64,000 nucleotides of DNA, taken from contig OX359194.1 of assembly GCA_947172415.1 (NCBI GenBank), positions 7,917,901-7,981,900 on the forward strand, given 5' to 3'. The notes under the pieces are model-generated. The model saw only the letters and a list, made by a program, of their open reading frames with translations. It ran no database searches and was not told the DNA's origin. A program made the translations under genes and the position numbers. This DNA is from Chondrosia reniformis. Taxonomy: Eukaryota > Porifera > Demospongiae > Chondrillida > Chondrillidae. Shown one piece after another: positions 1 through 36,100 of the stretch. How positions within the stretch are numbered: position 1 is the stretch's first letter; each line of letters opens with the position of its first letter.

Positions 1-3000
1 GAGTACATCTATATGACAAAGGTAAACAATTTATACATGAAATTTAGATATAAAAATAATATAAAGCAAACAGACTCTTCCTCAAACACAAATGAATAAT
101 TCCAGTACGTACTTCTGTGACCAAACCAATTCATAAGGCAACTGGCACACACTGTAAAAGCATGTATGCATAGTGCTTCAATTTGCTCAACCTACGTACA
201 TACGTATATCTCTACATTAGCATAACCTGGCTGCTATTATATTCTGGTTCTACGATACCTTCACAATATTCTGCAGTAAGTTAACAGCTGATCTAGTAAC
301 TGTTAGCTCCAGAGGTGCTTTAGAAGATATTTCAATGTCAAATTTTGGTTCAGTCCTGTACTGTTGTATAGACCTTTGCTTGGTCTTCTTGGAGCCATAT
401 ATAGTTTCAAACTTGTCAGAAGTTGGCATGGTAAACTGTATTATTGGTAAATACAAGTAAATAAACAGATAACAATAATAACATCTGTTAGTTAAAAGTT
501 TCTTCTAAATATGTTAAATTATAGCTTAGTTTATAATGTTTAGGGAAGCAATTGCTGAGGATCCTTTGGAACAAATGAACATGCACTTCTCAACAAATAC
601 TCAAAATTCAAAAATTCTGAACTTAAAATAAAGAAGTGCATGTTAACATGTACATACCTGTAAGTCAAAGCTCCACTGGTTGAACCTGTCAATTTGTGCT
701 TCATAAGGTTCCAAGATTGGTTCCCAAATAGACATAGCTGTATTGTAGTAAGTAGCTTCACATTGTACACTCACTGAGATAGAGGGCTAGAATAAAGAGA
801 TGCAATGTAAGTCCAGTTGCAACTCTGTATTTGCATGACAGCTGGGTGCCATGGATGACAGCCGGGTGCCATGGATGACAGCCGGGTGCCGTGGATGACA
901 GCCGGGTGCCGTGGATGACAGCTGGGTGCCGTGGATGACAGCCGGGTGCCGTGGATGACAGCCGGGTGCCGTGGATGACAGCTGGGTGCCATGGATGACA
1001 GCCGGGCGCCATGGATGACAGCTGGGTGCCATGGATGACAGCCGGGTGCCATGGATGACAGCTGGGTGCCATGGATGACAGCCGGGTGCCATGGATGACA
1101 GCCGGGTGCCATGGATGACAGCCGTGTGATCTTACAATTGTCATCCATGGTAATCAGGTAATAGTATGAAAGGTGCTAACTCACTTCTATGGTGAAGTGT
1201 GATATGCTTCCAGAGATGCTTGCAATGAAGGCCAATAAAGGCTTTGCAGTGTCTCCTTCCACTTTAAGCTCAATCTCACGGACATTCAGTTGTACCTAAA
1301 ATGTGAATATTGCACAAAACAACAATCTGGTAATGCAACAAAGTTAGGGCGGCCATCTTGGCCTTGTAGAGATTGTGATTTTCCTTTACTAGGTCATGAA
1401 GTGCTTGGAAATACATTTGCTCTATTGTATTATGCCACATGTGCTTGACTAAATAAATATTTCTCAGAATTAAAAATATCTAATTGAGACTTCACTTAGC
1501 AAAGAATATATGTTACAAGTGACATTACCTCCTCCTTCTTCGTAATCTTCTTTTTGGACAAAACCTTCCTCTCTCGTAATTCTTAAAAATAAAAAAGGGC
1601 AATCACAATTGCATAGTGGCCCAGGGCCCTTAAAAATGCCTGCATACTTGTCAATAGGAACCAGGAATCATTACTGACACTCTGCTCCTCCCACAGGTCT
1701 GGTGGAGGGTGTTCAACCTTCCTCTCAGTGGTCTAGTGGACAGAAAATGGTGGACCTACCACTACACTGTTGGGGTATATCAGTAACAAGAAGAAGAAGG
1801 AAGAAGGACCATATTAGATGAGGGCTATAGGAAGTGGATCGACAGGAGGGGTCAGCTATCATATCAATGTCCTTCTCATGATGCAAACATTATATATACG
1901 TACGTATATGTTTACTGATGAAGGGTGGAATTCCCAGAAACAGCTGTCTGTCCCAGTGGAGAAGAAGATGAAAGAGAGGAAAAGAAGAAAGAAAAGACTC
2001 CTGTATCTTCATCCAAAGCTTTCTCCAGGTTTAGTTTCCTATAGGCTTTTTTACAGAATAGGCACAGCATGTAGGAAAATGGTGCATTAGATTTTTCATG
2101 TAGCAGATTTCTATATTTATAACCCTTATATAGTGAGGTTGCACCATCATTCAGCATAGTGCATTCTCTATAAGAGGGCCTCCCTGCAGCTTTGTTATAA
2201 TGAGATGCGGCCTCTGAAATGTCATGATGCAACGTGCTTATTAAGTGTACAGTGAACAGACATGTTTAATATGCTGAGCTACTGTAATACCTTTTCTGGA
2301 ATAATCATCTTGACTATCATTGTAATAAGTTTGACCAGTGGTGGGGATACGCTGAGGGACAACCTGTCTATGTCAATTGTAGCCTCCAGTGTCTGGAAGT
2401 CAGCAGAACCATGGATGGTGGAATGGAGGGTCATAGGCAGCAAAACCTAAAAGAATTCAAAACACAAGCGAGTATTACAGGTAGAGTACTGCACCATTCA
2501 GGTGATAAGCAAACCACAAGTAAATCATTAAAGTAAAAGATAATGAGCAAATACTCAGATTCAAACCTATGCAGATCATTGGGTTAAACCTGAAGTGAGA
2601 CACCAGGAGCTATGGTAAGAGAACACTACCTTCTACTCCAATCTCTTACACCATATTGGGACGTCCTGTACATACATTAGTTTGCTCAAACTTACATGTG
2701 TATAAGGATTCTCAATTTCCAACAGAGAACACGCTGATATACCCAAATTTGAGAGCTGGAGGGAGGCTTGCAAATCATTATGAGATGGATTCAGATTAAA
2801 GTGTCCAAAGCTCTCAGCCTACAGTAGACAGAAACGGAGAGGAGACCAGTTTGTGCACCTATTTCAGTTCCCCTTCAGCTATCAGTCTAGCTCACTCTTA
2901 GGACCAGGGCAGTGGGGTTATCCTTCCAAGCATCCTCCACCAGAGCAACTCGGAAGTTCTGCATGCTTGCTTGAAACTTAAGTGGTTCCTTTGGCAGACG

Positions 3001-6000
3001 TTGAGAAAGTGAGGTTTCAGGTTCATCACCTTCACTTTCCTCTGATGTAACTGAAGATAGCTCTACATCATCTGAAGTCAATTCTTTGATACGTTCAATC
3101 TTATCATTTGATTTTATAATTGCCATGAGAATATTAACCAAGTTTTTAATGAAGTCCATTTCAAGGAGAATCAGCATACCATTTCCTTTGATGAAAACTA
3201 TTGAAGCAGAAAATTGACACAAAATAGTAACATACATTTCACCAAAAGAAAAAGGTATTAGGAGACAAGTGATATTTAAGCATATCCAGCTAATGATATT
3301 CATTGCCCATTGCTAGGCTGACTCACAGTAATAGGAAGCTGGAGACTTGTTAAACTGGAGCATTGTCAAAGGCTGTTGTTCTCCTTTCTTCTCTTTAGTG
3401 TTGTGATACTTTCGGATAATCTCCTTCCTGTGATGGATACACAAGTCATAAATAGACTAGAAGGCCCTAATTTATTACCATGACAATTCCAGCTTACCCT
3501 ATCACTCTGTCTGCTGACTTGGGTCTGTTGTCAGCTACTACAAAGTTATGGAGAGTAGCCTCTAATTGTAGGGACATACTCTTTTCAACTGAAGCAGATA
3601 AAGTGATAGAGTGAACATTGATACTAGCAAATTTGTGCTGCAAGAGAAAGTCTCCATCTTGATCATCCTCCTGGAATTGATACAACAATATTAATTTTTG
3701 GGATAACTAACTTAATTTTACAGAAAATTAGCGGTACATACATACAAAGTGACAACAAGCTGTATCATAGCAACAGTAAACCATACAAATAAGTAGATAA
3801 TAGTACAGTGTAGCCATATGTAGTATACTGTACAAGTAGTATGTACTAAAGTACAGTACAGCCATATGTAGTATACTGTACAAGTAGTATGTACTAAAGT
3901 ACGGTACAGCCATATGTAGTATACTGTACAAGTAGTATGTACTAAAGTACAGTACAGCCATATGTAGTATACTGTACAAGTAGTATGTACTAAAGTACAG
4001 TACAGCCATATGTAGTATACTGTACAAGTAGTATGTATTAAAGTACAGTACAGCCATATGTAGTATACTGTACAAGTAGTATGTATTAAAGTACAGTACA
4101 GCCATATGTAGTATACTGTACAAGTAGTATGTACTAAAGTACAGTACAGCCATATGTAGTACTAGAGAACAATAAAAATTTTCTACAAAAATAGTGAAGA
4201 TGTAGGGATGGCACAAAAAGCATAGAAACAAGAAAGGGATGTTACACAGTGAAGCATTAGCTATATATGCATGAATCATACAACACCCTTGCTTGTAGGA
4301 TTCATGCATAGCTAATGCTTCACTGTGTAACATCCCTTTCTTGTTTCTATGCTTTTTGTGCCATCCCTACATCTTCACTATTTTTGTAGAAAATTTTTAT
4401 TGTTCTCTAGTTTCTGTACTTTTTATGGAGCATAAGCTAGGAATTCGTTGTATTTTAAACCACTTTGGTTTCGCAATCTTCGACTGATTATGACGTCATT
4501 AAAATGGCGAATTTATTGAGGTCTTGACTCTTGAGCCATGAAAACTGTCATACTCAATAATAGCGTTATCGCTCTCGCTTCTACAAAAGAATACAGCTCG
4601 GAAAATTTAGAGTAATTTCGATTAAGAAGTAGTCCGAAGGCTTATTTCGTTTTTTAGTTACAGCGGGCGAAGAAGATGAAGAAGAAGAAGATGAAGAAGA
4701 AGAAAACGAAAATGGGAGATTTCAAAGTTCGTTCATTTGCCAACGATACACGGTCGCTTGCCTTCAAGGCCAATTTATAGCATGTTTGTTCTATATTTAA
4801 CTCTACATAGTCTCGTTTTGGCGATTTTCAGCCTAATTCGGAATTTCGCTCCTATACCAATGTATGGGGAAAACGAAACAACCAGTACCATCCCTACATA
4901 GAGAGTACTACCGTACTCTCTGATACTGTACAAGTAGTATGTATTAAAGTACAGTACAGCCATATGTAGTATACTGTACAAGTAGTATGTACTAAAGTAC
5001 AGTACAGCCATATGTAGTATACTGTACAAGTAGTATGTACTAAAGTAGAGTACAGCCATATGTAGTATACTGTACAAGTAGTATGTACTAAAGTACAGTA
5101 CAGCCATATATAGTATACTGTACAAGTAATATGTATATATACGTATATATCTAATGCACTTGGCATACTACTGTACAGGAACACAGTGAACATTGCACAT
5201 GTTACCAGTCTAGGTTCTTCTGCGAAGAAGTTGAATACAAATGAGCTGAGACTCAAGGATGTCTTCAACAAGTAAAAATGTTGTGGAGGAAGAGAGGCCT
5301 CATCAGTGTCCACTTGTTCAGACGAAGGTAATGCTTTCTTCTTAGCCTCTAAGGCTCCCAGTTCAAGCTTATCTAGAATAGCCAATTAGGTGGTACCATT
5401 TTGAATATGCGGTCTACTGGGTGTGACTTGACTTCACCTTTCTTTTGGAGGAATGGAGCTTCCTTTACTCTCTTTGCAATATCCAGCGCCAGCTCAAAGA
5501 ACACATCCACATCTTCTGTTCCCAGGGAGAGCTACATGATAACGACAAAAATGATGATGTTGCTGATTATGACATCACTCAAGGCATATGTACGTATATA
5601 TAGCCATTTACTTACAGAATATTCTCAATTCACACTTTTGTATGTGCATACATTATATAATGCACAATACACTTACATTGGTTGTACGTATATTGTTAAC
5701 ATGTATATGCATATATAAATATGTGTATTTTTGTGGTCCACTCACTTGAAGGTCGCCAAGATGCAGGGACAGGTCAAATTGAGGGATCTCTTCAATCCAC
5801 CAACACATGCTCCTTGTAAAGTGACTCTTGATATGTACTGGATGCCAAAGCATTCTTCCCTGAAGAAACTCTAGGCCAGATGATTGGTCCAGTGAGCAGT
5901 GAGCTAAGGTGATGGCCCTACAGAGAAGAACGAAAAGAGATAACTAAAGAGCAGGATAATAAGGGATTTCCCCAACATTAATTGACTATAAGCAGCTACA

Positions 6001-9000
6001 CCAAACTCTATTAATAATCTTTTCATGTTCAGGCCTCTCTTTACATACATGCACACTAAAGACTTAAAGGAGAAGACAAAAAGACAAAGATTCCCAGGGT
6101 CATTGATGAAGGGTGGAATTCCCAGAAATAGCTGTCTGACCCAGTAAAGAAAATGAAGAAAGTTGGTATGATCTGTATCCTCACCCAAAGCTGTAAAGGT
6201 TTTCCCCAAGTAATCAGTCCAGGAATACAGTCTATTACGTAATTAATGTCAAACACGTCTATAAGAAAGTGGTATTTTGATAATTTCTATGCCTACTGTA
6301 TGCTGTAATCATATATACAATTTCAATATAAAGTACCTTGATATGCTGAAATTGTCAAGGGAGATAGTGAACTTTTCAAACACTCCTTTGACTTCCTTCT
6401 CTTCATCTCCATCGTATCCTTTGTAAACTACAGCCTCAATGACACAGTCATTGCTCAACTTCAGTGTACCCATGTTTACAATAACAGTCTGCTCAGGAAC
6501 AGACAGAGGTATGCAAATGGTGGGAGCCTCCAGAATCAAGTCGACATCAACATGTTTGTCTTGGGCCTGCAACATCAAGGGGAAAGTACTGGGTCTAAGT
6601 ACAATTAGCAGACATCACTTATCCTTGGACAGGTTAATCAGTCTTAAGGAGAAGACATACAGATTGTTTGAGAATAAAATAACATACCAGCTCAGCTAGT
6701 ATGTACTCAAAACAAATCAAAGTAATAATAAAGTTAGTATAACCTTACACCAAGTTAGTATAACCCTACACCAAATCACCCACAAATTAGCTCCATTATA
6801 AAAGAGGAAAAGGTCTGTGACATACAAAATACTAAATACTAGTGGTGAATGGAGAATCTGAAAGTCTTTCTTTTCTTTTCTCTTGCTATACTTGGGTACC
6901 CCCAATGGGGGCAGGCCTATTTGACTGCTGGTTCAAACATACACTCCGTCCAAAGTTGCACAGCAAAGAAAGGAAATGAAGACATAGATGTGGACCTCCA
7001 TATCACTATTGGAAACGAGGTAGGCAAGGTTACCTGTCCCTTGCTCGGTACAGAACCAAAATATGCGGCAGAGTCTTGTCAGGCAATATTCCAATGCAAC
7101 CCCAGAGCACCAGACGGCTACTATTGGCTAGCTACCACACACAATGGAAGGGTGGTTATCCAGGAAGCACATTGCGATATGCTGACCAGGCACTGTGGGG
7201 TGAAGGGAGGATGGATGAGAGTGGCACACATAAACATGACTGCTCCAGGGGCTGCATGTCCTTCTAACTTCAGACAAATTACTTCACCAAAACCACTTTG
7301 TGGCAAAACAGCTGCTAACACAGCCAGTTGCTCTTCTGAAATATTCCCTTCACTAGGTATTCCTTACAGCAAGGTCTGTGGACAGGCAGTGGGGTACCAG
7401 TACTACAGTATGGATTCCTTTCATGGACCAAGAGATATAAACACCTACTATGTCGATGGTGTCTCAATCACTCATGGATCACCTCGCAAGCACATCTGGA
7501 CTTATGCAATAGGTCTATCTGACAACCAAGACTACGATGGGAAATACAACTGTCCGTGTGCCGTACATCCAGGCCCTGATCCTCCTTCCTTCGTAAAGGA
7601 GCATTATTATTGTGAGTCAGGCAATATAGGACCATATGAGAATCAGTATTATATTGATGACCCGTTGTGGGATGGAAAAGGCTGTGGAAGTGGAAATAAC
7701 TGCTGTTCTCAGTCTGGCTTGCCATGGTTCTGCAGAGACCTACCACAAGACACTACTGAATATATTGAAGTTAGACTGTGTGCCAATGAGGGTGGTGAAG
7801 AACCCTACATTGAAATACTGGAGCTCCTTGTCCAATAATAAATGTTACTGAATCACACATATCAATCCAAAGTGTACAACTACTCTAATAGACAATTAAC
7901 TGTTATAATGTCATAACACTGTATTTGTTATGAAATTTCCAGCTATAGTAATGTACAATGCATGCAAACCTGACACATTCATACATACATATAGTACATG
8001 TACGTATGTACTTGAGTCTGACCGCATTATAGCCATTTAAGAAGTATACCAGAGAGTACCAGAGAGTACATTTATACACATATAGACTGATATACAGGTA
8101 AATGTAGTTCTCCCTTTCCAATTCACTTACAAGTTTGGCTGCAACAGTGGTAGCTTCCTTGGTAACGGCTACTGCTTTCTCAACCAGGTTCTTTGGCACA
8201 TGAATATTAGTAGCAAAGCCCTAAGAAGAGGTAATGTCAATTGCTACTTTATACAGTGTTTAGCAGACCAAAAGGATCAATATTTAGCAAGCAGAAACAT
8301 AAATTATCTATCAAGTGCATGAAAACAACCTTCTTCTTTAAAGCAAAAAGGACACCTATATTAAGACTAAGTATCAAATATGTACATTCGATATTTGTGA
8401 AACATTTGATACACCTTTTAAACAATAATCAGTAGAGAACCCTTTCATGCATTAAGCAATTTAACATTGTGACTTACAGCCACCCTTATTCCAAAGCTGG
8501 ACATGATGAACAACTTCAGAGGAGATACCCTAGCTCTGACAGAAGCGAGGGCTGGAGGAATAACCAATTCATTTGTGTCCTGTGTCTTCATGGCAACAGA
8601 GGCATCCAGAGAGACCTGTAAAGTGGTAAAACAGAGAAGAATCAATTTAGAGGAGAATGGACAAGTGTACAATATTTTAACAGGAAATAATACCAACCTG
8701 AACATTCAACAACTTATCTGTCCTTTTGGCTGAAGAAACAATCTACGTATGTAAGCAAACAAGAAGATAACTTTAAACTATATCCATGTGTATATATGTA
8801 TCTATTCACATCTGTTGCTATAGCAACATAGCTTACCTTCATAGGTGGATACTTCTCATGATCAACCACAAACAGGTCCTCTAAAGACACACTTTGGGAG
8901 GAGAAAAATCATAGTCAATAGGCTATACGTAGTGTCAAACTGTAACTGGTCTCAAGACTGATTTTAAAACGAGAGAGCACCACTTTGGATATGCTACACT

Positions 9001-12000
9001 AACATTACTATATGCAGTAGGTATGCCATTTTAATAAGCTATCAGTTAAAATGCACAGTGTATTTAACCTTGCTTTAACACTTGGCAAGTTTGTCTCCAT
9101 GACAATATCAGCTTTAGCATCAACACCTAAAAAGATACATGGTATATACGTATACCCTCAGCACATGGTCACTCTCAGCACATGGTCACCCTCAGCACAT
9201 GGTCACTCTCAGCACATGGTCACTCTCAGCACATGGTCACCCTCAGCACATGTTCACTCTCAGCACATGGTCACTCTCAGCACATGGTCACTCTCAGCAC
9301 ATGGTCACTCTCAGCACATGGTCACTCTCAGCACATGGTCACTCTCAGCACATGGTCACTCTCAGCACATGTTCACTCTCAGCACATGGTCACTCTCAGC
9401 ACATGGTCACTCTCAGCACATGGTCACTCTCAGCACATGGTCACCCTCAGCACATGGTCACTCTCAGCACATGGTCACTCTCAGCACATGTTCACTCTCA
9501 GCACATGGTCACTCTCAGCACATGGTCACTCTCAGCACATGGTCACTCTCAGCACATGGTCACTCTCAGCACATGGTCACTCTCAGCACATGGTCACTCT
9601 CAGCACATGGTCACTCTCAGCACATGTTCACTCTCAGCACATGGTCACTCTCAGCACATGGTCACTCTCAGCACATGGTCACTCTCAGCACATGGTCACT
9701 CTCAGCACATGGTCACTCTCAGCACATGGTCACTCTCAGCACATGGTACCCTCAGCACATGGTCACTCTCAGCACATGGTCACCCTCAGCACATGGTCAC
9801 TCTCATAAACACTTAGGAATGTACCTGTAATACTTCCTGTTATGAGATCTTCTTTGTTTCCATGTTGTTTCACCAGCATTTTTACTGATTCCATTCTAAA
9901 TAGCACTTCAATCTCAAGCGGCTGTTTTCTCTTTTTTGAGCCACCTAATCACATGTGAGACACACCCTTGTCACACCCACTTGTATTAGTAGAACATTGC
10001 CCTAACCATCACCTCTTATCATGCATAGCTTAGTGGAAATAGTGCAAATGTGATAAGCAATTAGTGTGTATATACATATATGCTGTTGCATATTGCTTAT
10101 ATATAAATATAGCTGCATATATTATATTTAGTATGCATGGGTAGACATACTATTTAGTATGCATATACCTTTCTTTAAAGCCGTTTTTAGGGTCCTTTTT
10201 CCTTGTTCTCTCACTTCCTTCATGTTTGGACTGAAACCTTTATTAGTATCCAGAAAGTAGATTTAACAAAACAAAGTACAACTCAGAACTATCTAATGCA
10301 TACTTATCACAAGTAATTCACTAGTCTAAAAATGTAGTCTGGATATAGCAGGACAATTAACACATTGACAGTCAATTAAGTGGTAACTTACTTTCTTTGA
10401 TAGCTAATACACTAGGATGGTTGGCAAGTCCAGAGAGTGAAACCCCTGTCATTATCATGTCATTAATCACATCAGTGGTGACAATAGCATTAAGACTATC
10501 AGTGTGTCCACTGACAATGACCTTTGGACCCGAAGCCTCAGGGTCAGATCTGACAAGAATATGTTCTACATGGGCCTCACATGCCACTGGATCCATCACA
10601 TATTTCCTCTTTTCGGGATCATTAATGTGGTCCACTTTATCAACTCTACAGAAAAATGTGCAGCAAGAGGCTTCCATTTTATTTAAGGAAGGTCTGTGCT
10701 ACAGATAATGTACTGGTTCCATGATCATACTTGTAAATTTGAGTGGAGGCCAGCTGAACTGATGCGACTGACACCACTTGTGTGTTGTCCTTCCTGTATT
10801 CCAGTTTGTTGGAGACGGAAGCCTTCCCCAGGTCGGTCACCAGACCACGCCCACCTGAGGTGGGCAGGATAAAGATGGGGGCAGAGAGATTCAGGGAGTA
10901 CCTCACTAGCGGTGAAGATTTTTGAGGGGTAGTTCTGGAAGATAATCCAGCTGTTTCCTTGGCTTGTTTTTCAGCCTGGGCAGAATAGAATTCAGCTGAA
11001 GTGTACAAGAAACTCCTCAGGGATATACCACACTGGGATATTCCTGCTTATATATGTGAGACGTATGTATGCATGTAGTGGCATCTACTAGCAAGTGAAC
11101 AGTGCTATCTTACAGCAGTTGTTGCAGAGCCAACTAAATTGACAAACTCTGTGTCAGCTAAGACTTGTTCCAATTTCATCTCAGCCACAAACTCCTGCAT
11201 ATACAGTACATATAGTAGCACAACATGGTATTACTGCTATATATAGTAACACAGAATGGTAATACTGCTATATATAGTAACAGGTCATCAGACAAATCTC
11301 TTTAGGTTTAGAAATCAAACATTAAGCTATAGCTTGGAAATATAAGCATTCACTAAGTACTAGACTGGTATATAAATTACGATCTACTATACATTCCCCT
11401 TTGGCCTAGTACTAGTTTTATGTCCAGCTCAGATCAGTGACAAATGCACCTCCAGACATTATACATTATTAGTACAAGCAGGTTCATTAGAGTATTAGTA
11501 ACTTACCAAAAAGTTCTCTATCACAGACTGCAGTAGGGTAACCCTTATCTTGTGAACACCAAGGTCCAACTCCACATCTGGATTTGACACATCTGGAATG
11601 GAACCACAAAATACCCGAGGAATATGCCTCAAATGTTTGACTACACGCAGTGTCACAAGTTCTGTTCTTTCTTCCTCAATGGACACCATCTAAAGATAAG
11701 GTACATGACAAATTGGAGTGATTTATAACAAAATGTCTCTTAATTTCAGAACTTGGTACCAACTTTTTTAATTGTTGCTCCTTCCTCTGGGTTCCAAACA
11801 ACAAAATGGTCAATCCTACAAAGTTTATAATAAACTTTTATTTCTTTGCATCATTAACTACCTAAGCCTATCACCTTCAACTGAGCCTTTAGAACTAAAA
11901 TATTATATACTTGTACGCACATACGTATATGATGATGTGAATGTGAATATTAACAGACCTTGCATTAATTAATGCCTTCATCTTATCAACTCTTCCGGAG

Positions 12001-23040: not shown

Positions 23041-23750
23041 GTTTAAATTCAACTTAAAGATATATCTCCCGTTGAACTAACAGGGGCCATTTTTTAAATG
23101 TCATGTGGCGAATTTCTGAGAAATATATATATAGGAATTGCCTTTGTATACTTTGCATAGATTGCACTGATCAAAATTTAGGACAGTACCATTTATGAGA
23201 TTTAATTCCCCATATTTCCCTTTCAAGTGACTCATGGGCTTCAGCTTGGCCTTGCGCTCTTTTTGATGCATGTGTCACTTAAATAGTAATATTTTTAACA
23301 ATAATAAAAAGCCAATAATTCTAATCACTGCAACATCTCGGTACAAGTAATTTTACAAAACACCACACGTTACATGTATGATAAAGTACATTCCAGTTGT
23401 AAATGAATAACTATATAGGTAGTTGCATATGGCCCCCATCATCATGTTGGTCCATGGTATGCACATGCACCATTTGGACATGTGCTGTTGTTGAAATGTG
23501 CTAAGTTGACAAAGTCACACTTTGACTTATCACAAGGGTAAGCAGTAGGTGTCAACATATAGGTGTTCAGGTGTGGGCATTTCGTGTGAGGTGAAGCAAC
23601 AGTTCACAGTGAAGGTGTAGCTAGTAAGCATGCTTTGGTGAGTGCCTGAGCTAGCTCTTTTAAGGAAGAAGGCAATCCGTATCCGATTGATTGTATTGCA
23701 ATCGTAAACCTCGTTGCGGCACGGCTTTCTTTACTATACATGCACTACAA
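23041..23750. promoter_or_regulatory. Divergent intergenic region, VPS13 (-) and receptor guanylate cyclase (+)
   Basis: About 710 bp separate the two start codons. No long open frame and no TATA box at a convincing distance were seen. It must contain both promoters, but I can point to no specific element. Confidence 0.4.
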
Positions 23751-26700
23751 ATGAAGCTGAAGATGGGATTTCTATTTCAAGTGTTTGTTGCAGTATCAAC
23801 GATACTTTCATGCAGAATGGAGTGTTCCGAAGCTCAAAGGATTCCAGTTTATGTGTCTGTTGTTGATGTCTACTCCTTATCGTACAAGCCCTACAGAGCG
23901 AATTCGTCCGTACCTGCTTGTCTCTTAGCAATCGATGACATCAACAATTCAACCACTATACTACCAAACCATGAACTTGTGCCAATTGTCAATATAGCAT
24001 CTTCTTATTCAGATTTTCTAGAAGAGACAAAATTATTCTCCGAAATATGGTACAGCGGAAATGTCTCAGCTTTTATTGGCCCGCCCGCGTCTACTAGTTC
24101 TGTGTATCCTGGTCTGCTGGCTTCTAGGTCAAACATACCGTATTTGGCATGGGTAGCAAGCGACTCGAGGTTTGTGGATACCACAGTCTACAAGACGTTT
24201 ATTCGCACCGTTGGAAACCTGGAATTCCTGGGTCCCTCCATAGTAGAGTTGATGAACCACTTCTCTTGGACTAGAATAGCTTATGTAGAATTTCATGATG
24301 AAACCCACTTATCAATAATCATATCCCAAATGACATACATTGTTGAACCACTGCGTCATGCTGGCCTAACTGTGTTGCAAGGATTTCATGAAAATGACCC
24401 AAGAAATATTTCTACCACTCTCTTGAAAGCTAGCAAAGAGGCCAGAAGTGAGTTCTTCTGTTGTTAAAAGGAATCTATAAACTGCAGGTTTTTATCAGGT
24501 CTTTTTTTCCATACACAGTTATCTATATTTCCTTTGCAATTGCAAGACTGGTGGGAGAGGTTCTGGATGCTATTAAGAGTAATAATTTGGATGATGGACG
24601 TTATGTTTTTATTACTTACGATAGCTCACGATTTTCTGAAATATTTGCTGATCCAAACACTACCTTAAGATATGTAAATACACTTAAATCTATGATGATA
24701 TTTGACAGTGATACACTCCAAAGCAAAAATGCAGCTGAGTATCAATTATTTGCTGACCGTGTGCAAGCTAGAGCTGTCAGACCACCTCTGAATATTTTGC
24801 CAGTGGAAGTAAGTTTATGTACAGCCATGTATATATACATATATATACATAAAAAGAATATATAATGGATATGTAAAAGAATTAATAGACCAATGTGGCC
24901 AGCGGAGAGCTAGGAGAAGAACTTTATTACATAATATATCCTCATAATTTCTACATACAAACTTGTACATATACATGTATCAATAGGAAATGGCATCTCA
25001 TATAGACATTTCATGGGAGAGCAGCTTCTACTGTGTACATTCAATGGAAAATTTATATTTAATTATATTCATTGTCATATCTAGGTATCGGTGTACAGTA
25101 ACCTTTGCTATGACATAGTATATCTATACGGCCTGGGCTTGCATGCTGCACTTGAGGATGGGTATTCTGTGGAAAATGGAACAGTTATTACTGCCTACAT
25201 GAGAAATATATCTTTTGAAGGTACGTAAGCTTCTATATATATGACATATTATCAATGTAAAAGGTACCTTTGTTGTTATTGACAGAAGTATACAATTTCA
25301 ACATTGCATAATACCTACTCTACTTGTCTATACATATTAAAGGTGTATCTGGAAGAGTTGTTTTTGGTGAAGACAGTGAAAGACGCCTAGTACTTGCCTT
25401 ATACACACTCAGTGTGATAAATGGCACATATTCCTTTAAAAGGCTTTACAGAACCCTCTCAGGAGGATCAGTGATGCCAGATTTTACTGTCATAAATTGG
25501 CCAAATGGTGCTTCATCAGCACCATTAGACCACCCGCCATGCGGCTGGAATGGAGAATTCTGTAGAATAGTTCAAGGTACATACATGCATACATACGTAC
25601 AATTACTTGGAAGATATATGTATATGTATGTATGTATGAGGACCTATACTACTTCAAGATGTCTTATTGTTGTCACAACAAATATGCTCAATCATTTCTT
25701 ATATGTATGTACATCCATATGTATTGGCTAATGCTATATTTATACGTATGTATACATACACATACTAGGATACTGAGCAATGAAGACCTCCGGGTTGAAA
25801 TGGTCTATTTAAAAGAATTCATGTTGCAGTTGCTCAATAAATCTCAGTATCCTATTATTATGATTGCAACAAATATCCCCTATTACTTCACATACACATA
25901 CCTACGTACATACATATGTATACATGCATGTACGTATATATATACATGCATGTATATATATACATGTAAATGCTTAATAATATATTTTAATATACTTGCA
26001 TGAATATGATTTTTTTATGCTTTACAATGTAGTTCCTGACCAATTTGAAGAGTTATACTTGCTCTTCCTAGCTGGTATACCAGTTGTAATGCTTATCCTG
26101 GTTGTAGTTGGTGTACACTAGTAAGTTAGAAGCATGCACCATATGATATTATCAAATTACATGCATATGTATGTATGTACGTATGTAAGCTATAGGACTC
26201 CAATAAGTGGATCTCTGTGTCTAATGTCCCCCTAAATACTTGTACAATCAAAGTACATATTCCTAGTGTTCATCTCATGCAATTATCTCTTCATCAGCAC
26301 TAATAATATTAAATGTACATGTATTATTATGCATCCAGTTACCTGAAGAAGAAACAGAATAATTGGAGGAGAACACGATACATTGTTGACTTCTATGAAA
26401 TTGATTTCCAAAATACATATGATGACAATGAAGAAGAAAATGAAGAATTCAAAGATGTCACTGAATGTAAAATACAACCAAGAAGAAGAGTTCTAAAACA
26501 TGAAGATTCTCATTTACAATGGGTAATTAAAGCTGTGTAGTGTATATTTAATGCTGTATTTACCTCAAGTTTGTGTGTGTATTATTAGAGTAAATATCAC
26601 TTGGAGATGGACAGTAGTGCCCAAACATTTCCAACTCTCTTTGGAAAAATTAGTAATATGGTACGATCAAGGAAAGGAAGGAAACACAAAACCCTTGGAT

Positions 26701-29700
26701 ATTCCATTGATCATGGAGACATTATGCATGGAAAATACAGGGTACATACAGTGTATAATTACATCCATACATACGATATTTTGCAGTGCATACACATATT
26801 TTATGTAATTACTTATTTGTTACCTACACAAACTAGGGAATGGATGTTGCTACTAAAATCTTGCCCTTCTCCATCAAATTTACGAAAACAGTAGTGAAGG
26901 AAATTAACGAGGTACACAGTATGCGTATATACCTGCATGAATTATTATGCTGTATCAGTATATATGAATAGCAATACACTGTCTTTTTGTGTTGAATGAA
27001 ATTTTGTTAAAATTATATACGTATGCAGTTGATGGATCTGAAGCATGCAAATATTTTGGAGTTAATTGGGATAGCACAGAGCTCTGTTAGCTATGTCATC
27101 ACACCTCATATGAAAAGAGGCAGTATCAAGGTATGAGCATGTTTATGGCCTAGAAGACCTGAAGAGAGCTTTGGATGAAGATACAGGAGTCTTTTCTTTC
27201 TTCTTTTCCTTTTCTTTCATCTTCTTCTCCACTGGATCAAACAGCTGTTTATGGGAATTCCACCCTTCATCAGTGATCCTGGGAGTCTTTGTCTTTTTCT
27301 TTATCTTTATCTTGATCTTGAATCCTTGTGCAGTGTTCAATTAATTTCAAATACTATATTATCTGTGTACGTACATTTATTCTGATCACAGAAAATCCTT
27401 GATCCAAATGCTGTTTTACCACCCAAAGCAGAATTTTACATGCTAAGAGATATTTGTCAGGTACGTAACATCTCTCTATTTGTTGATACTCAAAATAATT
27501 ATCGTAAATATGTATAAACATGAGTGTATACATACGTACGTATAACAGCATATTATACGTATACAATAATCTATTTACATATAATTAGAATATTGCACTC
27601 TTTTGAATGTTTATGAATTTCCTGCTGTATTATTTCCATAGGGTATGGCTTACCTTCACGAAACATTTGGTGCCCATGGTAACCTTAAATCATCCAATTG
27701 TTTGTTGGATGGAAGATGGAATGTTAAGATTACAGACTTCTTCCCTAATAGTATTCTACAGCAGTCCTATGTGTCAAGCTTAAAGGATGTCGACAAATAT
27801 GAGGAGAGGAAATTAGAATGTAAGTGTTTGTTTCTACTTTGAGTAAGTACATGCTTGTACTTACCTATTTCTATAATTTTCTTAATTTCTAGCCTTAGCA
27901 TGGACAGCACCTGAAATACTTGCAGAAAATTACAGAAATGGTACACAAATATGGAAATTGAAGAGCAAAGTTGGAGATACTTATAGCTTTGCAATTATCA
28001 TGCAAGAAGTATTGCAAAAATGTCCTCCCTTCCATTACAACAGAGAAACCTTAGCTGGTAATTAAGCATTTCATCCCAATTCTTAATCTTAATTAGTGGC
28101 TAACTGTCAAGTATGTACATATCGAGTCACATTAGGCTCACATACTGGGTACTATATAAAATCTAATCACTATTACAGTGAAGTCAATTAAAATAAATGA
28201 GGTAAGATGAATATATGTATACATGTGTCTTAGTTAACACCAAATTTAACTTTTGATGCCAAAATTGTGTAAGACCCCTAGAGTTAGTACAGAGAGCGAA
28301 GGACTCACAAAAGATCAAGAAGAAGGCAATAATTCCCGGCATCACCGATGAAGTGTCCTGGCCCAGTGGAGAAAAAAGTAAAAGGAGACCTCTTGTATCC
28401 TCATCCAAAGCTCTCACTAGGTATAGGCCTTTACTTACTCTAAAGTATAGCATGTAATCTATTGATTATCCATGTAAGTGAAAAATTTAATGTACTCTTC
28501 AAAAATAAATTATTAAAACATGACAAATGAATAAGTTATGTAACTATCTCATTTTCATATACATTTAAGGTTTAAGTTTAATGTTATGTACATACGTATG
28601 CAGTTATACATAAGTAAGTACATTCTATTGCAGAATGCATCACTGGAATAGCAAATGGGTCCTCATCGTCAATTGTTCCTGTTATCAGAAAAGCAGAATG
28701 TGATACAGCTCCAAATGGTTATATTGACCTGATGAGAAGATGTTGGAATACTATTCCCAGCAAAAGACCAAACTTCGATGAAGTGCTTTCACAGCTTTGC
28801 CTTATTTATCCTGAAATCAAGTACGTTATGATATACGTACGTACGTAGTAATATGTACGTACATATGCTTGGCACAAATACACATATGTATGTACATTAT
28901 TAATAAACAACCTTTGTATACTTCAAGAGATTTGAATGTGATTGAAACTTTGACGGAACGTCTGGCTAAATACACTGAAAAATTACAGACATCTGTTGAG
29001 GAAAGATCTATTGAAGTACTTCAGGAAAAAGAGAAGAGTGAACTACTCCTTTCTAAAATGCTTCCAAGGTTGGGATAACAGTTGCATTGAATGTGATAAG
29101 TACATAGTCCATATAGTATGCCATAATGCAAGTTACTGTACTTATGCACTTATAATATAATGTAGGTACGTACATATGTACATACGTATATATATAGTGT
29201 ATATACGTACGTACATACGCATGTATAATTCTTTATGTATATGATTCCTCCTTTTCAACACACAGCAATGTTGTATGTACATTAAAGCAGGGACAACCAG
29301 TAAAGGCAGAGCAATTTGATGAAGTGACTATATGCTTTACAGCCATAGCAGATTTTGTTGATATTGCAACACAAAGTACACCAATTGAGGTGAGACACAA
29401 TCATATGGAGAATAGCTATATCTGATAGGTACGTATGTAGGGCTGTATGCAATACCTAATTCAATAGGTACACAATAGTAGGCTGTAAATGTTGATAGGG
29501 TTAGGAAGACTAACAGTGACAGTATGTATACTACAGTAGGCTACTGTATGGATATATGTATACATACATACCTTTTATGACAGTAGCCCCAATTTATGAT
29601 TGATTTCTTCTTTTGACCCTCTTTTCAAGCCTCACTTACAAGAAGAACATTCTCATTCTCATTTTTGATTTAACTTTAGTAGCTATTAGGACTAGTATCA

Positions 29701-31117
29701 TCTATGTACGTATGTAAATGATATACATAATATCTTTCCTGCTCATACGTATATAGATTGTGGAATTTTTGAACAAACTTTATGTTCTCTTTGACAACAT
29801 CATTGAGACAAGAAATGTGTATAAGGTATAGTGCTACACGCACTTTGTGCCTGACATTTGTATATACATAGTACACTTACTAGAGCAGTTCACTATTTGA
29901 GTTTTCCATATATACGTACGTATAGCAGCATGAAACAATTCACATACGTACGTAAGCTTCAGGACATTTGATTCATAGACTTTTGTGAATTGTCTTGTGT
30001 TGCTATGAAAAGCTCAAATAGTGAACTTTGATCATCTTAGAAACATAGCAATACTACTCTCTATCACATACGTATATATTACCTTACATCTGTACATTCA
30101 CAAGGTACTGCATTCCGCAGGTTGAGACTGTAGGAGATACGTACATGTTGGTGGGTGGACTGCCCAACAGATTGCACTACACTCATGCTTCTGCTGTAGC
30201 TGACAGTGCTTTGGCACTCCTGCATGCATCCAAGAAAATGAAGATTCCTCACCTTCCAGACCTCTCTGTTAACCTTAGAGTTGGAATACATTCAGGTACA
30301 TACGTATACGTACTTAGTGCTCCAATTACTGATTACTTATGTAGTATCTACGTACATTGGCTATATTCTCTTTCTTAGGCTCAGTTGTAGCTGGTGTGAT
30401 TGGGTCTGCTATGCCTCGTTACTGCCTCTTTGGAGATACAGTTAACCTGTCTTCTAGAATGCAAAGTACAGGAGATGGTATGTACATACATATATTTTAA
30501 TTATTTTTAGTTAATTAGTAATGTAAACTTGTAGCAAGGCCTTTTATGTATTAAAACATACAAATATAATATAAAATAAGGATTTCTTCTAACTGCATCA
30601 AACTTACTCTTGGATATCAATGGTATACATATATATATTTCAACTCTTTGAACATCTATATATGTAAGTATATATAAAAATGCAAACCTGGTGCAACCTT
30701 TTTGGTTGACCGTTTCAATCCAAGGGTCTTCCCTTCATCAGCAATGATGGATTTGGGTCTTCATTTTTTATAGACGCTTACAAGTACGTATATTATGTAT
30801 TAAAAATGATAATAATTACTGTGTGTCATTCTCTTTATATATACACTTGTTTATATTTAGCTCACAAGATACAGATAAGTTTCACCACTTACCTCTTGCT
30901 TTGGTGGCTGGGAAAGTGGTCAATGAAGAAAAGAGGGACCACATATGTAAAAGGGAAAGGAGATGTTACAACCTTCTGGCTCGATAGAGAAGATGCCAGC
31001 ATTGAACCAGCCGACAGATCAAGACTACAACTTGACAAAAATGAGATTGAACAATGCCTGGAAATTCAGAGTTCAAAGAAGTACATTCAAGGTCTCCGTG
31101 ATGAATTCAATATATAA
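23751..31117 (+). CDS. Receptor-type (membrane) guanylate cyclase, possibly impaired catalytic site
   Basis: Exons: 23751-24447, 24519-24808, 25085-25220, 25343-25576, 26033-26120, 26339-26522, 26589-26741, 26837-26911, 27029-27130, 27392-27460, 27642-27819, 27893-28057, 28634-28820, 28928-29068, 29266-29389, 29757-29825, 30121-30295, 30379-30477, 30861-31117; 1,140 aa, all phases consistent. Order: signal peptide; ANF-receptor ligand domain to ~450; one membrane helix ~459-480; kinase-homology domain ~560-850 with [13 protein letters not shown], where an active kinase would have HRD; linker coiled coil ~854-900 ending LLLSKMLPR; cyclase domain. VETVGD (second metal Asp and guanine-recognition Glu), MPRYCLFGD (guanine-specificity Cys) and the N/R of VNLSSRM are present. 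The first metal Asp is not: the usual FSDIVGF reads FTAIADF, Ala near residue 926. An in-frame ATG also exists at 23691; 23751 leaves a clean signal peptide. Confidence 0.93.
27155..27300 (-). mobile_element. Hammerhead-core dispersed repeat, copy C (compensated outer stem)
   Basis: In a guanylate cyclase intron, antisense to the gene. On the minus strand: GGAUCA (27279-27274), CUGAUGA (27273-27267), stem II, UAAAC, AGCUG, and UGAUCC (27239-27234). The outer stem differs from copy B at one pair on both sides (G-C to A-U), so pairing is kept. GAAAC has become UAAAC and GUC has become GUU. The purine-rich tail continues to about 27155. Confidence 0.6.
28330..28460 (+). mobile_element. Hammerhead-core dispersed repeat, copy D (core deleted)
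   Basis: In a guanylate cyclase intron, in the sense direction. The upstream part (attcccggcatcaccgatga) and downstream tail (cccagtggagaaaaaagt onward) align with copies B and C. About 20 nt covering most of stem II and GAAAC are missing. A dead copy. Confidence 0.55.
30690..30765 (-). mobile_element. Hammerhead-like motif of a second type, copy G
   Basis: In the last guanylate cyclase intron, antisense to the gene. The minus strand reads CUGAUGA (30741-30735), a 5-bp hairpin AAGGG/CCCUU with loop AAGA, an extra GGAUU, then GAAAC (30716-30712). The extra bases between stem II and GAAA are not canonical, so this is a weaker call. A CAACC...GGUUG inverted repeat follows. Confidence 0.35.
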
Positions 31118-31192
31118 ATATCCATACTTGCTAACAAAGCACATATCTTATACACACAAGAGTAACTTTCATACAGTTATGATCAGTTTGTT

Positions 31193-31209
31193 ATTAAAAT
31201 AATTTTAAT
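31193..31209. terminator. Shared poly(A) signal region between converging genes
   Basis: ATTAAA on the plus strand (31193-31198) can serve the guanylate cyclase, whose stop is at 31117. ATTAAA on the minus strand (31204-31209) can serve the caspase, whose stop is at 31303. The two stop codons are 185 bp apart. Use of these variant signals is inferred. Confidence 0.35.
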
Positions 31210-31302
31210 AATTACAAATGCACATGTATACACTCCTAATATGAGAGAACAATGTTATAGTGAAATGCCTAAATACTGTAAGATGTAACGGGGGAGATCC
31301 AA

Positions 31303-32579
31303 CTATTCTATCCAATTATTTTCAAATTTCCCGGGGTTAAAGTAGAGTTTTCTCCTTAACTGGCTGACTGTTGAGGGAATCTGCTTGTATCCTGATTGGC
31401 TCTGACTTAGGGCAACTCTACGATTGACTTCAGTAAGCATATCCAGCAAATGTTCCTTGTGTGATTCCTCATTGAACACCTCCACCAAAGCCTTGACATA
31501 CCAGGATCCAAAAGAAGAATTCCTCCAGCTTACATAACCCTCAACTGTAGAAAAGGACAGTAAAAAGTCTGATTGATCTGGCAACAGAGTTTCAACTCCA
31601 ACTGTTTTATCCTCTCCTAAGGTCTTTCTGGCAAGGTTGGGGGAATCTGTTTGCTCAACTACTTTAACAGGTTTATCAAACTCTCCTCCCCGGCAAGCTT
31701 GTATAAAGAAAAGCTTTGGCTTCCCTGCCAAGCTTGGACAGTTTTGGCCAGTATAGAGATTTGCTATCTCTTTGATGTTTATCAAAACATCATCAGTTCC
31801 ATGCAACATTCCTCCCTTTTCGCCATGAGTTAAAATGGCCAAAATAAAGCAATCACATTTCTTATAGTTCTTCTCAGCATATTCCTCAATGGTCTCCCTC
31901 ATTTCACTTGCTGTCAGGTCGTAGTAGGAGAGGGTAGTGAAACCCAAACTGCTAAACAGGCTCCGAAGTGCTTTCTCATCCTTTCCTGTGCCTGGTCTGG
32001 GGGGCATTTCTGTGAAGTGCTCGTTGTTGATGATTATGGCCGCACCCCTTGGGTGATTTTGCATGTGATAAGCTGCTGGTGATCCATCGACACTTTCCTC
32101 ATTTTCATTCTCTGTATCTTTCCAGTCACCTTTCTTCATGGGAGGGTAGAGCTTATGGAAGAGGTCTTTATCCAAGAGTTCTTCAACCATCTGGGGCAGT
32201 GGGGCTTCCTTGTGAACTGCAGAGGAAACACAGTCCACTAGCTATTAACACTTCACCATAAATATTGGTTCAGCTTTTACAGCAATATACATACGTATAA
32301 GAAACACTGTGTATGAGATAGATAGATAGATGGGTGGATTGACGGACGGACAGACGGACGTATGGATAAGTGGATAGATAGATGGATGAAATATTCCAAC
32401 ATGGAAGACCTATCAGTTCAAGACTTCCACAAATATAAAACGAAATATAAAACGAAATATAAAATGTAGTTGATTGTCATATTAATATGAATAGATATAA
32501 CTATGCTAAATTGCTTACTGTCACTTTCCGAGGAATCATTCTTCGGCTTTTTAGCTTCTGGCTCTTTTGGCGTAGACAT
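31303..32579 (-). CDS. Effector-type caspase (cysteine protease of cell death)
   Basis: Two exons, 32519-32579 and 31303-32237, give 331 aa. The short ~85-residue N-terminal region has no CARD or death-effector domain, as in caspase-3/7-type executioners. The large-subunit motifs are a CDCFILAILTHGEKGG stretch holding the catalytic His and FFIQACRGG holding the catalytic Cys. The small subunit has the substrate-pocket motif SFSTVEGYVSWRNSSFGSW. The linker between them contains Asp candidates for processing (for example EQTDS and GEDK), and SVDGS is a plausible prodomain cleavage site. The gene converges on the guanylate cyclase and diverges from TTLL7. I do not assign it to a single vertebrate caspase. 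Confidence 0.94.
32308..32392. repeat. GATA/GACGGAC tetranucleotide microsatellite in the caspase intron
   Basis: A run of gata, gatg, gacg and gaca tetramers lies in the single caspase intron (32238-32518). It is an imperfect simple repeat. Confidence 0.8.
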
Positions 32580-33170
32580 TGAGTGGTAATTGATCTAAGA
32601 ATATGGTACATAGCTCAAGGGGATGTCAGAAATTTGACGACCTGTATGCATATGGCATTTAATTAATCTATTTGTTTACAAACAAACATAAAGAACATAT
32701 TAGTCAATCACGATACAATAGTTTGTTCCTCTACAAGAAAAATCGTTCTACATCGCTACACTAACCTTTTTATAGATAGCAGGTAACGAATGGCGTGTTC
32801 TTCACAAGAAGGCCGGAAATCCCCTATTTGACGAAATGAGTGTGAATCACTGCTAATTTATATAGTTTCTACTGTATAGTAACAAATCATTGCTATAACA
32901 ACTGAGAGTATCTAACATGGAGACAAGGGCTTGGCTTCCTATGTAATTGGATTCTTTATTTCTATATTCTAAGGACGATTTATGGTTCGAGTAGCGGTGC
33001 TTCAGAAGTGAGTGCAGAGTTGATATTTATGTCTAGTTAGCTGGACAGCGCCTGGGTGTTTGTTTACAATTAACCTGCTTGCCTATCTACGCACTGTCGA
33101 TTTTGATTTATTAAACTGCTAGTAAGAGCCGAGCACTAACGAACAGCAGCTAAAGAATTATCGGCTGGTT
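32580..33170. promoter_or_regulatory. Divergent intergenic region, caspase (-) and TTLL7-like (+)
   Basis: Start codons at 32579 and 33171 face away from each other with 591 bp between them. I saw no TATA box at a convincing distance and no open frame. Both promoters are inferred to lie here. Confidence 0.35.
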
Positions 33171-36100
33171 ATGGCGCACAAGGCAAGCCTACGTGCGAAG
33201 AAGATAGCGGAGGAAGGTCAATCCATTACCAAGAAATTATCTTCTCGTTTGAACAAAAAGTCAGCAGTCGGCAATGAAAACACCTTCGATAACATGCCTA
33301 TTCTGAATGCTTCGGGGACTAAATACGAAATAGGTAAGTCCTCGTATGCGGAATAAGCCAGCCCATTGTTATTTGAATCAAAAAGATGCATTTAAAATGT
33401 TATCTTAACTATTCCTATACTCGGTCCTATACTAACCCATCCTATTACAAACTTTATCGTTGGTTCAAGACTAGTTATACAATTAGCTTTTCCAATCAAA
33501 TTACAGATCCTATAGTTTGATTATTAAAGGTGTTTTTTTCTGATTAACGCAGTTCGTAAAGTTGCTTCAGCAATGGGTATGTTAGTAACTGAGGACGAAA
33601 CTACGGATTGGTGAGTACCTGATTTTTAAAAAAAGTGCAGTATTTGAATACCAATAATGACTTCTGCATGATAATATTTCTACTCAACAATTTTTTTTGT
33701 CCACCAGATTTGTTTTTTTGTTATACTCTGACGAAGGCCACAGTATGTGGCTGAAACGTTAGTAATGATCTATCGTGAATCATTTGGTTGGAATTGAGTG
33801 AATTATCTTTACAATATTTCTACTATTTTTATGTTAATATTTGGCTAGAGCACAATTATAATTACTGTAATTTTTCTTCTTTAGGGATCTGAAGTGGGCT
33901 GATTCTCCAGGTACACTGGAGAAATACTCTGAGCTCAAGTCATATCAGGTTAACACGACATATCATATGCATGACATACGTAAAACACAAAATCAATAGA
34001 TAAATCATATTGTTGTTTGGTACAGAGGATAAATCATTTTCCTGGAATGGGAGAGATAGCTAGAAAGGATTCTTTGGCCAGAAACTTGCAGAAGTATGCC
34101 ACCATTGTGTATCAATATGTCTTACAGTAAAATATCCTACGTCATTACTACAGGATAAAGAAGATCCATCCTCATGAATTTAGTTTTTTCCCCTCAACCT
34201 GGATCCTTCCAGCGGAATATATATCTTTGAAGTCTAGTATTATTGAACAGCAAAAAAGGAAGAAAACCCTGAAAACTTTTATAGTCAAACCTCCCAATAG
34301 CTCTCAAGGAAATGGGTGAGAGTTGCTAACTTTACATTTGCTACAAATGTTTTATAGATTTGTCCCACCAAATTTACCTCCTAAATAAGCCCCTCCTGGA
34401 ACCAAACCAGCAGCCAACTGGGGAACCAATTGCTGAAATTGCCCCCTTAAACTCTTTGGTTCCCCTCTCTTGAAACATAATAACTAACAGCTAAACCACA
34501 ATAGTCATAATATAACTCATTAGTTCACTGGTCAGGCAGCTGTTTCTGGGAACTCTACCCTCCATTAGTATAACCCTGAGACCTCCAGCAGACAGTTCCT
34601 CATAAACCTATTGGCTTTTTCAATTGTGACATCATTAATCACATAGTTGGACATACGTAGTTACATATATACTGTATCTGACCATTTTGTTCTGTAGTAT
34701 ATATTTATTGCAGTCTCCAGCCCAACTCAGAGAGGGGGAATCTGTGGTTGTACAGGAATACATTGCAAAGGTATATTAATTATTTGCTATTAATAAGTAT
34801 ATATAATACGTATATGTGTTTTATAAGTGTAATGTTTATCTTATAGCCATTGCTAATTGATGGATTGAAATTTGATCTCCGAATATATGTACTTGTTTTG
34901 TCATGTGATCCACTGAAAATTTATTTATACAGGGATGGACTGGTAAGTAATATACCAGCACACTGATGTACTCAGTAATAATGTGTGTATTGTATGTAAG
35001 TTTAATTGCAGAACTGGCAAAGTGCATGGGACAGTGGAGAAGAGAAGTAGAAGGAGAAAACTCTTGTATCCTCATCCAAAGCTCTCACTAGGTTTAGTTT
35101 CCTATAGGCCTTTTACTCTAAAGTAGATGTAGCACATTGAAAAAATGGTACATATATTTAGCTATTCATGTGTCCCCCAGAAGAATAAAAGTCATGTGAT
35201 GTTTCTCCAACAGGTCCGTCTGTCTACCAAACCCTATCAACCTCCGACTGTTGAGAACCTCCATGAATCCTTTATGCACCTCACTAACTATTCCATCAAC
35301 AAACACAGTGACACCTTCACACAGGAAGAAGGCATTGACAGAGGCAGCAAGAGAACAATGAAGTGGTTCAATACTTGGCTAGCAGACAATGGATACAATC
35401 ATGTGGAAATGTGGGACAGAATAGCAGTCAGTATATAATAGTCATATTTACGTACATACGCACATACATACATATACACAGTGTATTACAGTACGTTGGA
35501 AGCATCATATGTACATACATGGTAAAGGCTATATATACGTGCATACGTATATAGTATGAGCTATCCTACTTACCTACATTAGATCTCTTTGGATTTACCT
35601 ACATATGTATGTACGTATGTCAATAAAAACATAAACTCCTTATTATAAAATTAACCTGATTATATGTACATACGTATATTACCTAAAAGTAGTGAAAGCC
35701 GTTACTATTTCCGATGACCTTGCTATTTGATATGACATAAAACCTCTCATGTTTACAGGATGTGATCATCAAGACTATTATAGTGTCTCATCCTCATGTG
35801 GTGCACTCATACCAAATTTGTAGACCAGGCTTGACAGCTGGAAATGACAGAAACGGCTTTTTTGAAGTTCTTGGCTTTGACATTATTCTAGATGATTCCC
35901 TGAAACCATGGCTTCTAGAGGTCAGAAACATATCAGCTAATCAAAATAATTGTATTTCACACTATAATGTATGTATCTTCCATTTCACAGGTCAATCGGT
36001 CTCCAAGTTTCAATTCTGATTCCAAATTAGACAGGGATATTAAAAGTGGGGTCATATATGATGCTCTAAAGCTAGCTGATATCAGGTGAATTCAGCAACC

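Follow-up and report, generated by a model that had tools for sequence, protein, structure and literature searches.

A dispersed repeat family of the sponge Chondrosia reniformis with a type-I hammerhead layout and 5' ends gathered at the predicted cut

Does a short repeat scattered through the genome of the sponge Chondrosia reniformis carry a hammerhead ribozyme, and did that ribozyme leave a trace of its activity? The question is raised by a stretch of 64,000 nucleotides, hereafter the window (C6:7917901-7981900, forward strand), in an assembly of 117.38 Mb and 15 contigs. A preliminary description of the window reported five copies, A to E, of a repeat with a hammerhead-like core. The repeat is, in our judgement, probably a non-autonomous retroposon of about 220-240 bp, itself probably non-coding, whose RNA cleaved itself and whose cut 3' products were retroposed.

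The repeat family is real. In the window, nhmmer with a family model recovers all five copies and a sixth, copy F, at 35024-35153 (Table 1). The five had been described as sharing a common layout. The motifs of copy A are as described, but A has lost stem I, D carries a deletion in the core and E is diverged, with just five partial matches elsewhere in the genome among six candidates. With copy A as a DNA query against the genome, we obtained 983 first-look candidates, 40 of which were scored. Two subfamilies, an older and a young one, can be distinguished. The young consensus, the majority of 62 distinct copies, reads GGATCA-CTGATGA-AGGGTGGAATTCCCA-GAAACAGCTGTC-TGACCC in its mid-region, and the older consensus, built from 40 fetched copies, reads GGGTCA-CTGATGA-AGGGTGGAATTCCCA-GAAACAGCTGTC-TGGCCC. 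Family copies are dispersed through the genome: exact matches number 391 for a 26-base 3' marker of the older subfamily, 751 for a 28-base marker of the young one and 289 for a 36-base core (reversed control 0). Between the two consensus sequences 2 of 46 core columns differ, against 26 of 173 aligned columns outside the core (Fisher p 0.079). Both core differences sit in stem I, where a G-C pair is broken to A·C and a U·G becomes U-A. The family ends in ..GTGTTAGATTATTCA on its 3' side, and 67 out of 100 marker copies extend to the last eight model positions. Some copies (L005, L016, L025, L036, L049 and others) reach further 5' of the AAGGATTC start and share a stretch that may be the promoter of the source RNA: it holds TATATAAGGCCCCTAGATTTAGCATAGAGAG, which resembles a TATA box and lies about 30 bases before the common 5' start.

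The older consensus has the layout of a type-I hammerhead. Stem I is paired at 6 of 6 positions (one G-U), and CUGAUGA, stem II, GAAACAGCUGUC and a cleavable GUC follow; stem II has three pairs above an A·A, and stem III has three pairs and a 2-base loop. CUGANGA, GAA, the A15.1-U16.1 pair and UH before the cut stand in type-I order. In 4.52 Gb of random sequence simulated with the dinucleotide statistics of the window, we found 7 equally good layouts. The descriptor demanded all core bases, at least three pairs in stem II and in stem III and six in stem I; it permitted the A·A and is hence fitted to that oddity. The layout is real, and in full it is far rarer by chance than what is seen here. 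Short motifs are at chance level in the window, with 15 CTGATGA seen against 14.8 expected and 4 CTGANGA..GAAA against 4.6, and the case therefore rests on the family. The core is kept in most copies: among 79 older cores CTGANGA is present in 60 and GAAA in 65, and 47 are intact for both motifs and for the UH of the cleavage triplet, while 53 of the 62 mostly young copies have both motifs. The palindrome CAGCTG of stem III would also permit a dimeric hammerhead; such dimers are described for other short stems III in the available text of PMC3088659. Two more hammerhead-like strings lie in the window outside the family (Table 1).

Deep 5' truncations near the predicted cut were first seen in copy F of the window and in four further loci (L021, L022, L024, L056). 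The idea was tested on a set separate from these five, consisting of 100 older copies picked by the 3' marker alone, namely the first 100 of the 391 markers, on C1-C5. The layout, which places the predicted cut between model positions 87 and 88, had fixed this site before the 5' ends were mapped. According to nhmmer, 11 of the 100 copies start at position 88, two each at 85 and 87, and one each at 89, 90 and 91. Three pairwise scorings place 12, 8 and 10 starts at 88; no other start position is as frequent, whether nhmmer or any of the three is used. A gap-permissive boundary caller tried earlier differed from nhmmer by more than 3 positions in 67 out of 100 copies and was dropped. After removal of the duplicates L134, L143, L164 and L180, the merged calls comprise 96 independent insertions, of which 27 start at or before position 19 and 69 are 5'-truncated. 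Thirteen of the 69 (13 of 96 in all) start at 88, with a uniform tail of 5.6e-14; the tail is 0.0075 if another cause is supposed to make a start at 88 ten times as likely as the average. Fifteen truncated copies start at 88-90, and the best other three-position window holds 5.

The tree takes 12 of the 13 at-cut copies, those with enough 3' sequence. On this tree, which has few columns, they need 12 changes, and shuffled labels need 11.5 on average. Since the at-cut copies need as many changes as shuffled labels, the truncation arose many times. The copies are scattered over the tree, which lends no support to a single truncated master as their source. Genome-wide, 163 places (reversed control 4) match a pattern that requires three non-family bases and then the element starting at the cut. 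These places are not independent and include two amplified clusters. Of those listed, C2:757 kb accounts for 8 and a single strand of C2:2.51-3.56 Mb for 14. The latter run, C2:2509409-3557102, holds at least 14 same-strand copies of one junction, ACA followed by TGGCCCAGTGGAG, over about 1 Mb, which suggests an amplified segment. In the young subfamily, among the matches listed, 3 of 100 markers have a cut junction 46-53 bases upstream. Two of these lie 10 kb apart and are perhaps one duplicated insertion, and the third is inside the amplified C2 stretch.

In other respects the family has the pattern of a short interspersed nuclear element (SINE): it is dispersed, it is 5'-truncated at variable points in the 69 of 96 insertions, and it has a common 3' end. 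There is no direct tandem pair among 134 family matches in 104 loci, within the limit that loci of up to 3 kb set, and the nearest same-strand neighbours are more than 100 bases apart. At L071 (C1, around 2151588) a copy lies inside the open frame of a NACHT gene, with 15 identical bases on both sides. The 469-amino-acid open frame (L071:3362-4768), with a NACHT domain (Pfam E 4e-23), ends within the family copy, and the insertion, if transcribed, would supply the C-terminus of the gene product.

We read the pile-up as the fossil record of self-cleavage followed by retroposition. The layout, its rarity, the pile-up and its recurrence over the tree are shown, and catalysis in vivo, the role of the 3' end and the mobilising enzyme are inferred. 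The RNA of the older source would have folded with stem I GGGUCA/UGGCCC, CUGAUGA, stem II GGG/CCC, GAA and stem III ACA/UGU. It would thereby have carried a type-I hammerhead whose stem III is very short and whose 10.1/11.1 position is occupied by an unusual A·A, and self-cleavage would have followed GUC. The 3' product, running from UGGCCCAGUGGAG to the 3' end, would have retained what a borrowed reverse transcriptase needs. We propose that because this end was retained, 3' products would have been copied and inserted like full-length RNAs and alongside them, with a presumed choice of template, and that the outcome would be many copies starting at the scissile position. That a sponge retroposon had an active A·A hammerhead and spread with its help, so that cleaved 3' products were repeatedly retroposed and left a germ-line record of nearly single-nucleotide precision, is in our view an evenly balanced proposition.

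Several observations weigh against self-cleavage. One is the foot of stem II, where the preliminary description had correctly placed an A opposite an A. The 10.1-11.1 pair is lacking, with A·A in 75 of 78 older cores, and by comparison of the copies A10.1·A11.1 is ancestral in the family. According to the available text of PMC3088659, this pair is the most conserved one after A15.1-U16.1, and a natural U-U exception exists that outperforms other mispairs. The A·A should weaken catalysis. Hammerhead covariance models miss the family and find canonical hammerheads elsewhere in the genome. The Rfam models have no match to the family in the window even at E 10, nor in six family loci (L075, L078, L091, L153, L131, L010), of which two (L153 and L131) are at-cut truncations; L072, a retrozyme-like control, scores 37.1. 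RF00008 has no match in any control genome. The genome-wide search with RF00163 scored 73 of 11,921 candidates, and because of this fraction an absence of the family from its matches cannot be claimed. The energy minimum of the older core contains hammerhead stems I and II, but against dinucleotide shuffles neither core folds better (z 0.67 for the older, 1.38 for the young), and at its own minimum the young core lacks the hammerhead fold. The young subfamily may be less active than the older one.

The outer stem, stem I, had been described as covarying, with copies B and C as examples. Their stem I strings are indeed present in the sequence (Table 1), but pair 3 is an A·C mismatch in 52 of the 62 mostly young copies, and B, with G on one side, and C, with T on the other, each restore it by a one-sided change. 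In stem I of the 79 older cores (73 distinct), 402 of 473 scorable cells are unchanged, 66 show one-sided changes (45 broken) and just 5 show two-sided changes (3 paired), without compensation. In stem II, 39 of 229 cells have one-sided changes and none has a two-sided one. No compensatory change in the outer stem is found across the genome copies, neither among the 62 mostly young nor among the 79 older cores. The stem changes are decay of dead copies; there is no covariation, yet this is no argument against a once-active source.

Further points on the same side concern the insertions. Target-site duplications are exact over 15 bp at L071 and clear at L133 and L203, and are otherwise rare: 8 of 75 copies score at least 9, compared with 4.1% of mismatched pairs. 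A general occurrence of target-site duplications is not supported: no more than these 8 of 75 copies exceed the control level, and the top match, L173, is probably the tail of a neighbouring copy. The 5'-end sample covers the older subfamily. Two of the 13 at-cut insertions, L126 and L133, were set by hand to the nhmmer value in the merged calls, and the duplicate pairs L133/L134 and L163/L164 were judged by eye. CA precedes the TG in 7 of the 13 at-cut junctions (CA, then TGG), which leaves an uncertainty of about two bases in the start of these seven copies. Among the pattern places listed, 44 of 100 have ACA before the junction. Finally, for one Penelope-like element the available text of PMC11167929 reports that cleavage is unnecessary for insertion and that no reads begin or end at the site; unlike that element, as far as this text describes it, insertions of the sponge family end at the predicted cut site.

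The pile-up would also be accounted for if the at-cut copies were complete copies of another, shorter element onto which a 5' module was fused, such as a SINE whose tRNA-like A box, TGGCCCAGTGG, starts at that point, the hammerhead layout being coincidental. We take the fit of TGGCCCAGTGG to the A-box consensus, and of GGTTTAGTTCC in the 3' part to a B box with two mismatches, as points for such an origin. However, the at-cut copies are unclustered, with 12 changes for 12 copies, and well supported branches force at least three changes, again with few columns. Transcription by RNA polymerase III would initiate several bases ahead of an A box. ARAGORN and Rfam find no transfer RNA in the window, and the layout, with stem I strands on both sides of the joint, would be left to chance. 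We hold this origin to be unlikely.

The family could alternatively be the relic of a true hammerhead that was already dead in both subfamilies, its ends being gathered by a reverse-transcriptase stop at stem I or by an ..ACATG insertion site that shares TG with the element. The A·A at 10.1/11.1, the lost stem I pairing of the young subfamily and the CA and ACA contexts given above all speak for a relic of this kind. A stop at stem I predicts ends near position 94, but few lie there (three at 93, none at 94, two at 95). At the other six TG positions in the range 20-130 the merged calls place no start, though by raw nhmmer three copies, of which two are independent, start at 96. To model target microhomology, real flanks were drawn in 20,000 runs, with the ambiguous TG returned to the flanks and the apparent match allowed to extend; under this null 0.85 copies start at the cut on average and never more than 6, against the 13 seen. 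Neither the stop nor microhomology reproduces the pile-up, and we regard a dead relic as decidedly unlikely.

It is very improbable that the repeat derives from a coding stretch (peptide ..TDEGWNSQKQLSDPVEKK..) and resembles a hammerhead by an accident of codons. For a coding origin speak an open frame common to both consensus sequences (58 and 60 codons), the lengths of the two large indels inside it, which are divisible by three, and the 19 differences, of which 10 are at third positions, with 9 synonymous and 7 other codon changes. However, the alignment used for the codon counts itself favours synonymous changes, and when the young consensus is shuffled with its dinucleotides kept, 80 of 500 sequences have a frame open over the same length. 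In long copies an in-frame TAG lies three codons before AAG GAT (..CATAGAGAGCC followed by AAGGATTC), there is no in-frame ATG before the core, and Pfam has no match at E 1. Both core differences fall on first and second positions and none on a third, and the sole long frame, of 469 amino acids, is the NACHT gene reading into the insertion. Chance would mean a coincidental layout in one of many repeat families and a pile-up made by sampling or alignment. Many families do exist, the descriptor was made to suit the A·A, sampling took the first 100 listed of the 391 markers, all on C1-C5, and counts at the site range from 8 to 12 of 100 by alignment scoring. Chance is hardly credible even so: 10,000 families of 300 bp would yield about 0.01 such layouts at the simulated rate, and the site, set by the layout before end mapping, is the top position in nhmmer and each pairwise scoring.

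Canonical hammerheads occur in the same genome. A core with G10.1-C11.1 that ends in the identical GAAACAGCTGTC has 226 exact genome matches (reversed-pattern control 0), and 51 of the 73 genome matches scored with RF00163 are over the cut-off. They are of at least two stem II types, and several form retrozyme-like direct repeats with spacings of 352-363 bp (about 354-359 bp at the loci of Table 1); in one case four follow one another. Comparison of the family with one retrozyme-like unit of this genome by BLAST found nothing convincing beyond a 13-base core stretch. The preliminary description had offered, as an inference, an assignment of the family to Penelope-like elements or retrozymes. 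This assignment is not demonstrated, given the lack of tandem pairs, a similarity of 13 bases only and the failure of the Rfam models to find the family. Its central idea, a dispersed element whose hammerhead layout is of type I and has a very short stem III, is supported by the rarity of the layout, by the canonical cores ending in GAAACAGCTGTC and by the pile-up of 5' ends. The family behaves like a hammerhead-bearing retroposon; as a hammerhead it falls short in the 10.1-11.1 pair and the Rfam score, and as a retrozyme in its want of tandem copies. Repeats of schistosomes and of the cave cricket, satellite or SINE-like, also carry type-I hammerheads, with canonical cores, and are likened to the family here by description only.

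Like the metazoan non-LTR (long terminal repeat) retrozymes in the available texts of PMC7229834 and PMC7761336, the family consists of short non-coding repeats of a few hundred bases and low GC content, with a type-I hammerhead, in an animal genome. Unlike those retrozymes as described there, its copies are single, have their ends off the ribozyme site and carry A·A instead of G-C at 10.1/11.1. It shares a minimal hammerhead with a weak stem III with the type-I motifs of Penelope-like and Terminon elements, as far as these are presented in PMC11167929 and PMC7761336. Unlike Penelope-like elements, the short family unit shows no pseudo-LTR or reverse transcriptase, the copy flanks not having been searched, and it has no room for a GIY-YIG reverse transcriptase. 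In R2 and L1Tc, which have 5' ribozymes like that of hepatitis delta virus (PMC3414825, PMC4035085, available text), cleavage would set the 5' end of the RNA that is copied, just as in the sponge family. There, going by the same texts, the ribozyme is of another class, stands at the 5' end and fixes the full-length end, whereas that of the sponge family is internal and would give a second, shorter kind of copy. Among the papers listed from the open-licence literature, judged by titles and the starts of abstracts, we found no report of hammerheads in sponges or sponge retroposons and none of retroposon 5' ends at a hammerhead site.

Outside the family, the window contains satellite and minisatellite arrays, a long palindrome and exons or genes with Pfam domains (Table 1). 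The 19-, 17- and 20-bp minisatellites yield long spurious open frames in several frames.

Table 1. Positions of repeat copies, hammerhead-like features and other elements; positions without a contig prefix are those of the window.
Feature	Position	Strand	Description
Copy A, young type	1910-2099	+	5'-truncated just upstream of the core, stem I lost
Copy A, hammerhead-like core	1915-1948	+	CTGATGA, stem II AGGG..CCCA with A opposite A, AGGGTGGAATTCCCA, GAAACAGCTGTC
Copy A, predicted scissile site	between 1948 and 1949	+	predicted from the hammerhead model
Copy B	6052-6202	+	nhmmer
Copy B, stem I	GGGTCA 6097-6102, TGACCC 6137-6142	+	positions counted from the sequence
Copy B, core	6103-6136	+	TTGATGA..GAAATAGCTGTC; positions counted from the sequence
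Copy C, young type	27116-27329	-	core 27240-27273, stem I GGATCA/TGATCC, GAAA changed to TAAA
Copy D, older type	28284-28464	+	mid-core removed by internal deletion
Copy E, diverged relative	34526-34581	-	core only, CTAATGG..GAAACAGCTG
Copy F, older type	35024-35153	+	absent from the preliminary description; 5'-truncated near the predicted scissile position, ..gca followed by TGGGACAGTGGAG
Hammerhead-like string outside the family	30713-30741	-	CTGATGAAGGG..TTGAAACGGTC; unflagged by the stricter descriptor
Hammerhead-like string outside the family	33728-33756	+	CTGACGAAGGCC..GGCTGAAACG; unflagged by the stricter descriptor
Canonical type-I hammerheads (L072-L074)	C3:1599837-1600235, C6:3921765-3922163, C6:4724360-4724997		over the RF00163 cut-off; retrozyme-like direct repeats
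Canonical type-I hammerheads	C4:3837454-3838563		direct repeats
Satellite array, 169 bp	50961-64000		runs off the window end; 94% matches over 53 copies in the main part
Unit of 105 bp	52302-52508		bears an inverted repeat; inside the 169-bp satellite array
Long palindrome	4161-4411		112-base arms, 97% complementary, 27 bases apart
Minisatellite, 48 bp	3802-4161		adjoins the long palindrome
Minisatellite, 19 bp	14465-15377		48 copies
Minisatellite, 17 bp	9157-9805		38 copies
Minisatellite, 20 bp	835-1128		15 copies
Caspase	31306-32241	-	Pfam domain in exon or gene
ANF-receptor	23691-24467	+	Pfam domain in exon or gene
SCP2	39607-40206	-	Pfam domain in exon or gene

Animal genomes contain thousands of dispersed minimal type-I hammerheads, whose activity in vivo and role are still called a mystery in the available text of PMC7761336. 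By mapping the 5' ends of dead insertions, germ-line cutting by such ribozymes can be examined with nothing more than sequence, and the answer from the 5' ends of this family looks positive. A core variant overlooked by current covariance models would be a further addition. If the reading of an active A·A hammerhead is true, it would show, for one family, what dispersed minimal hammerheads do.

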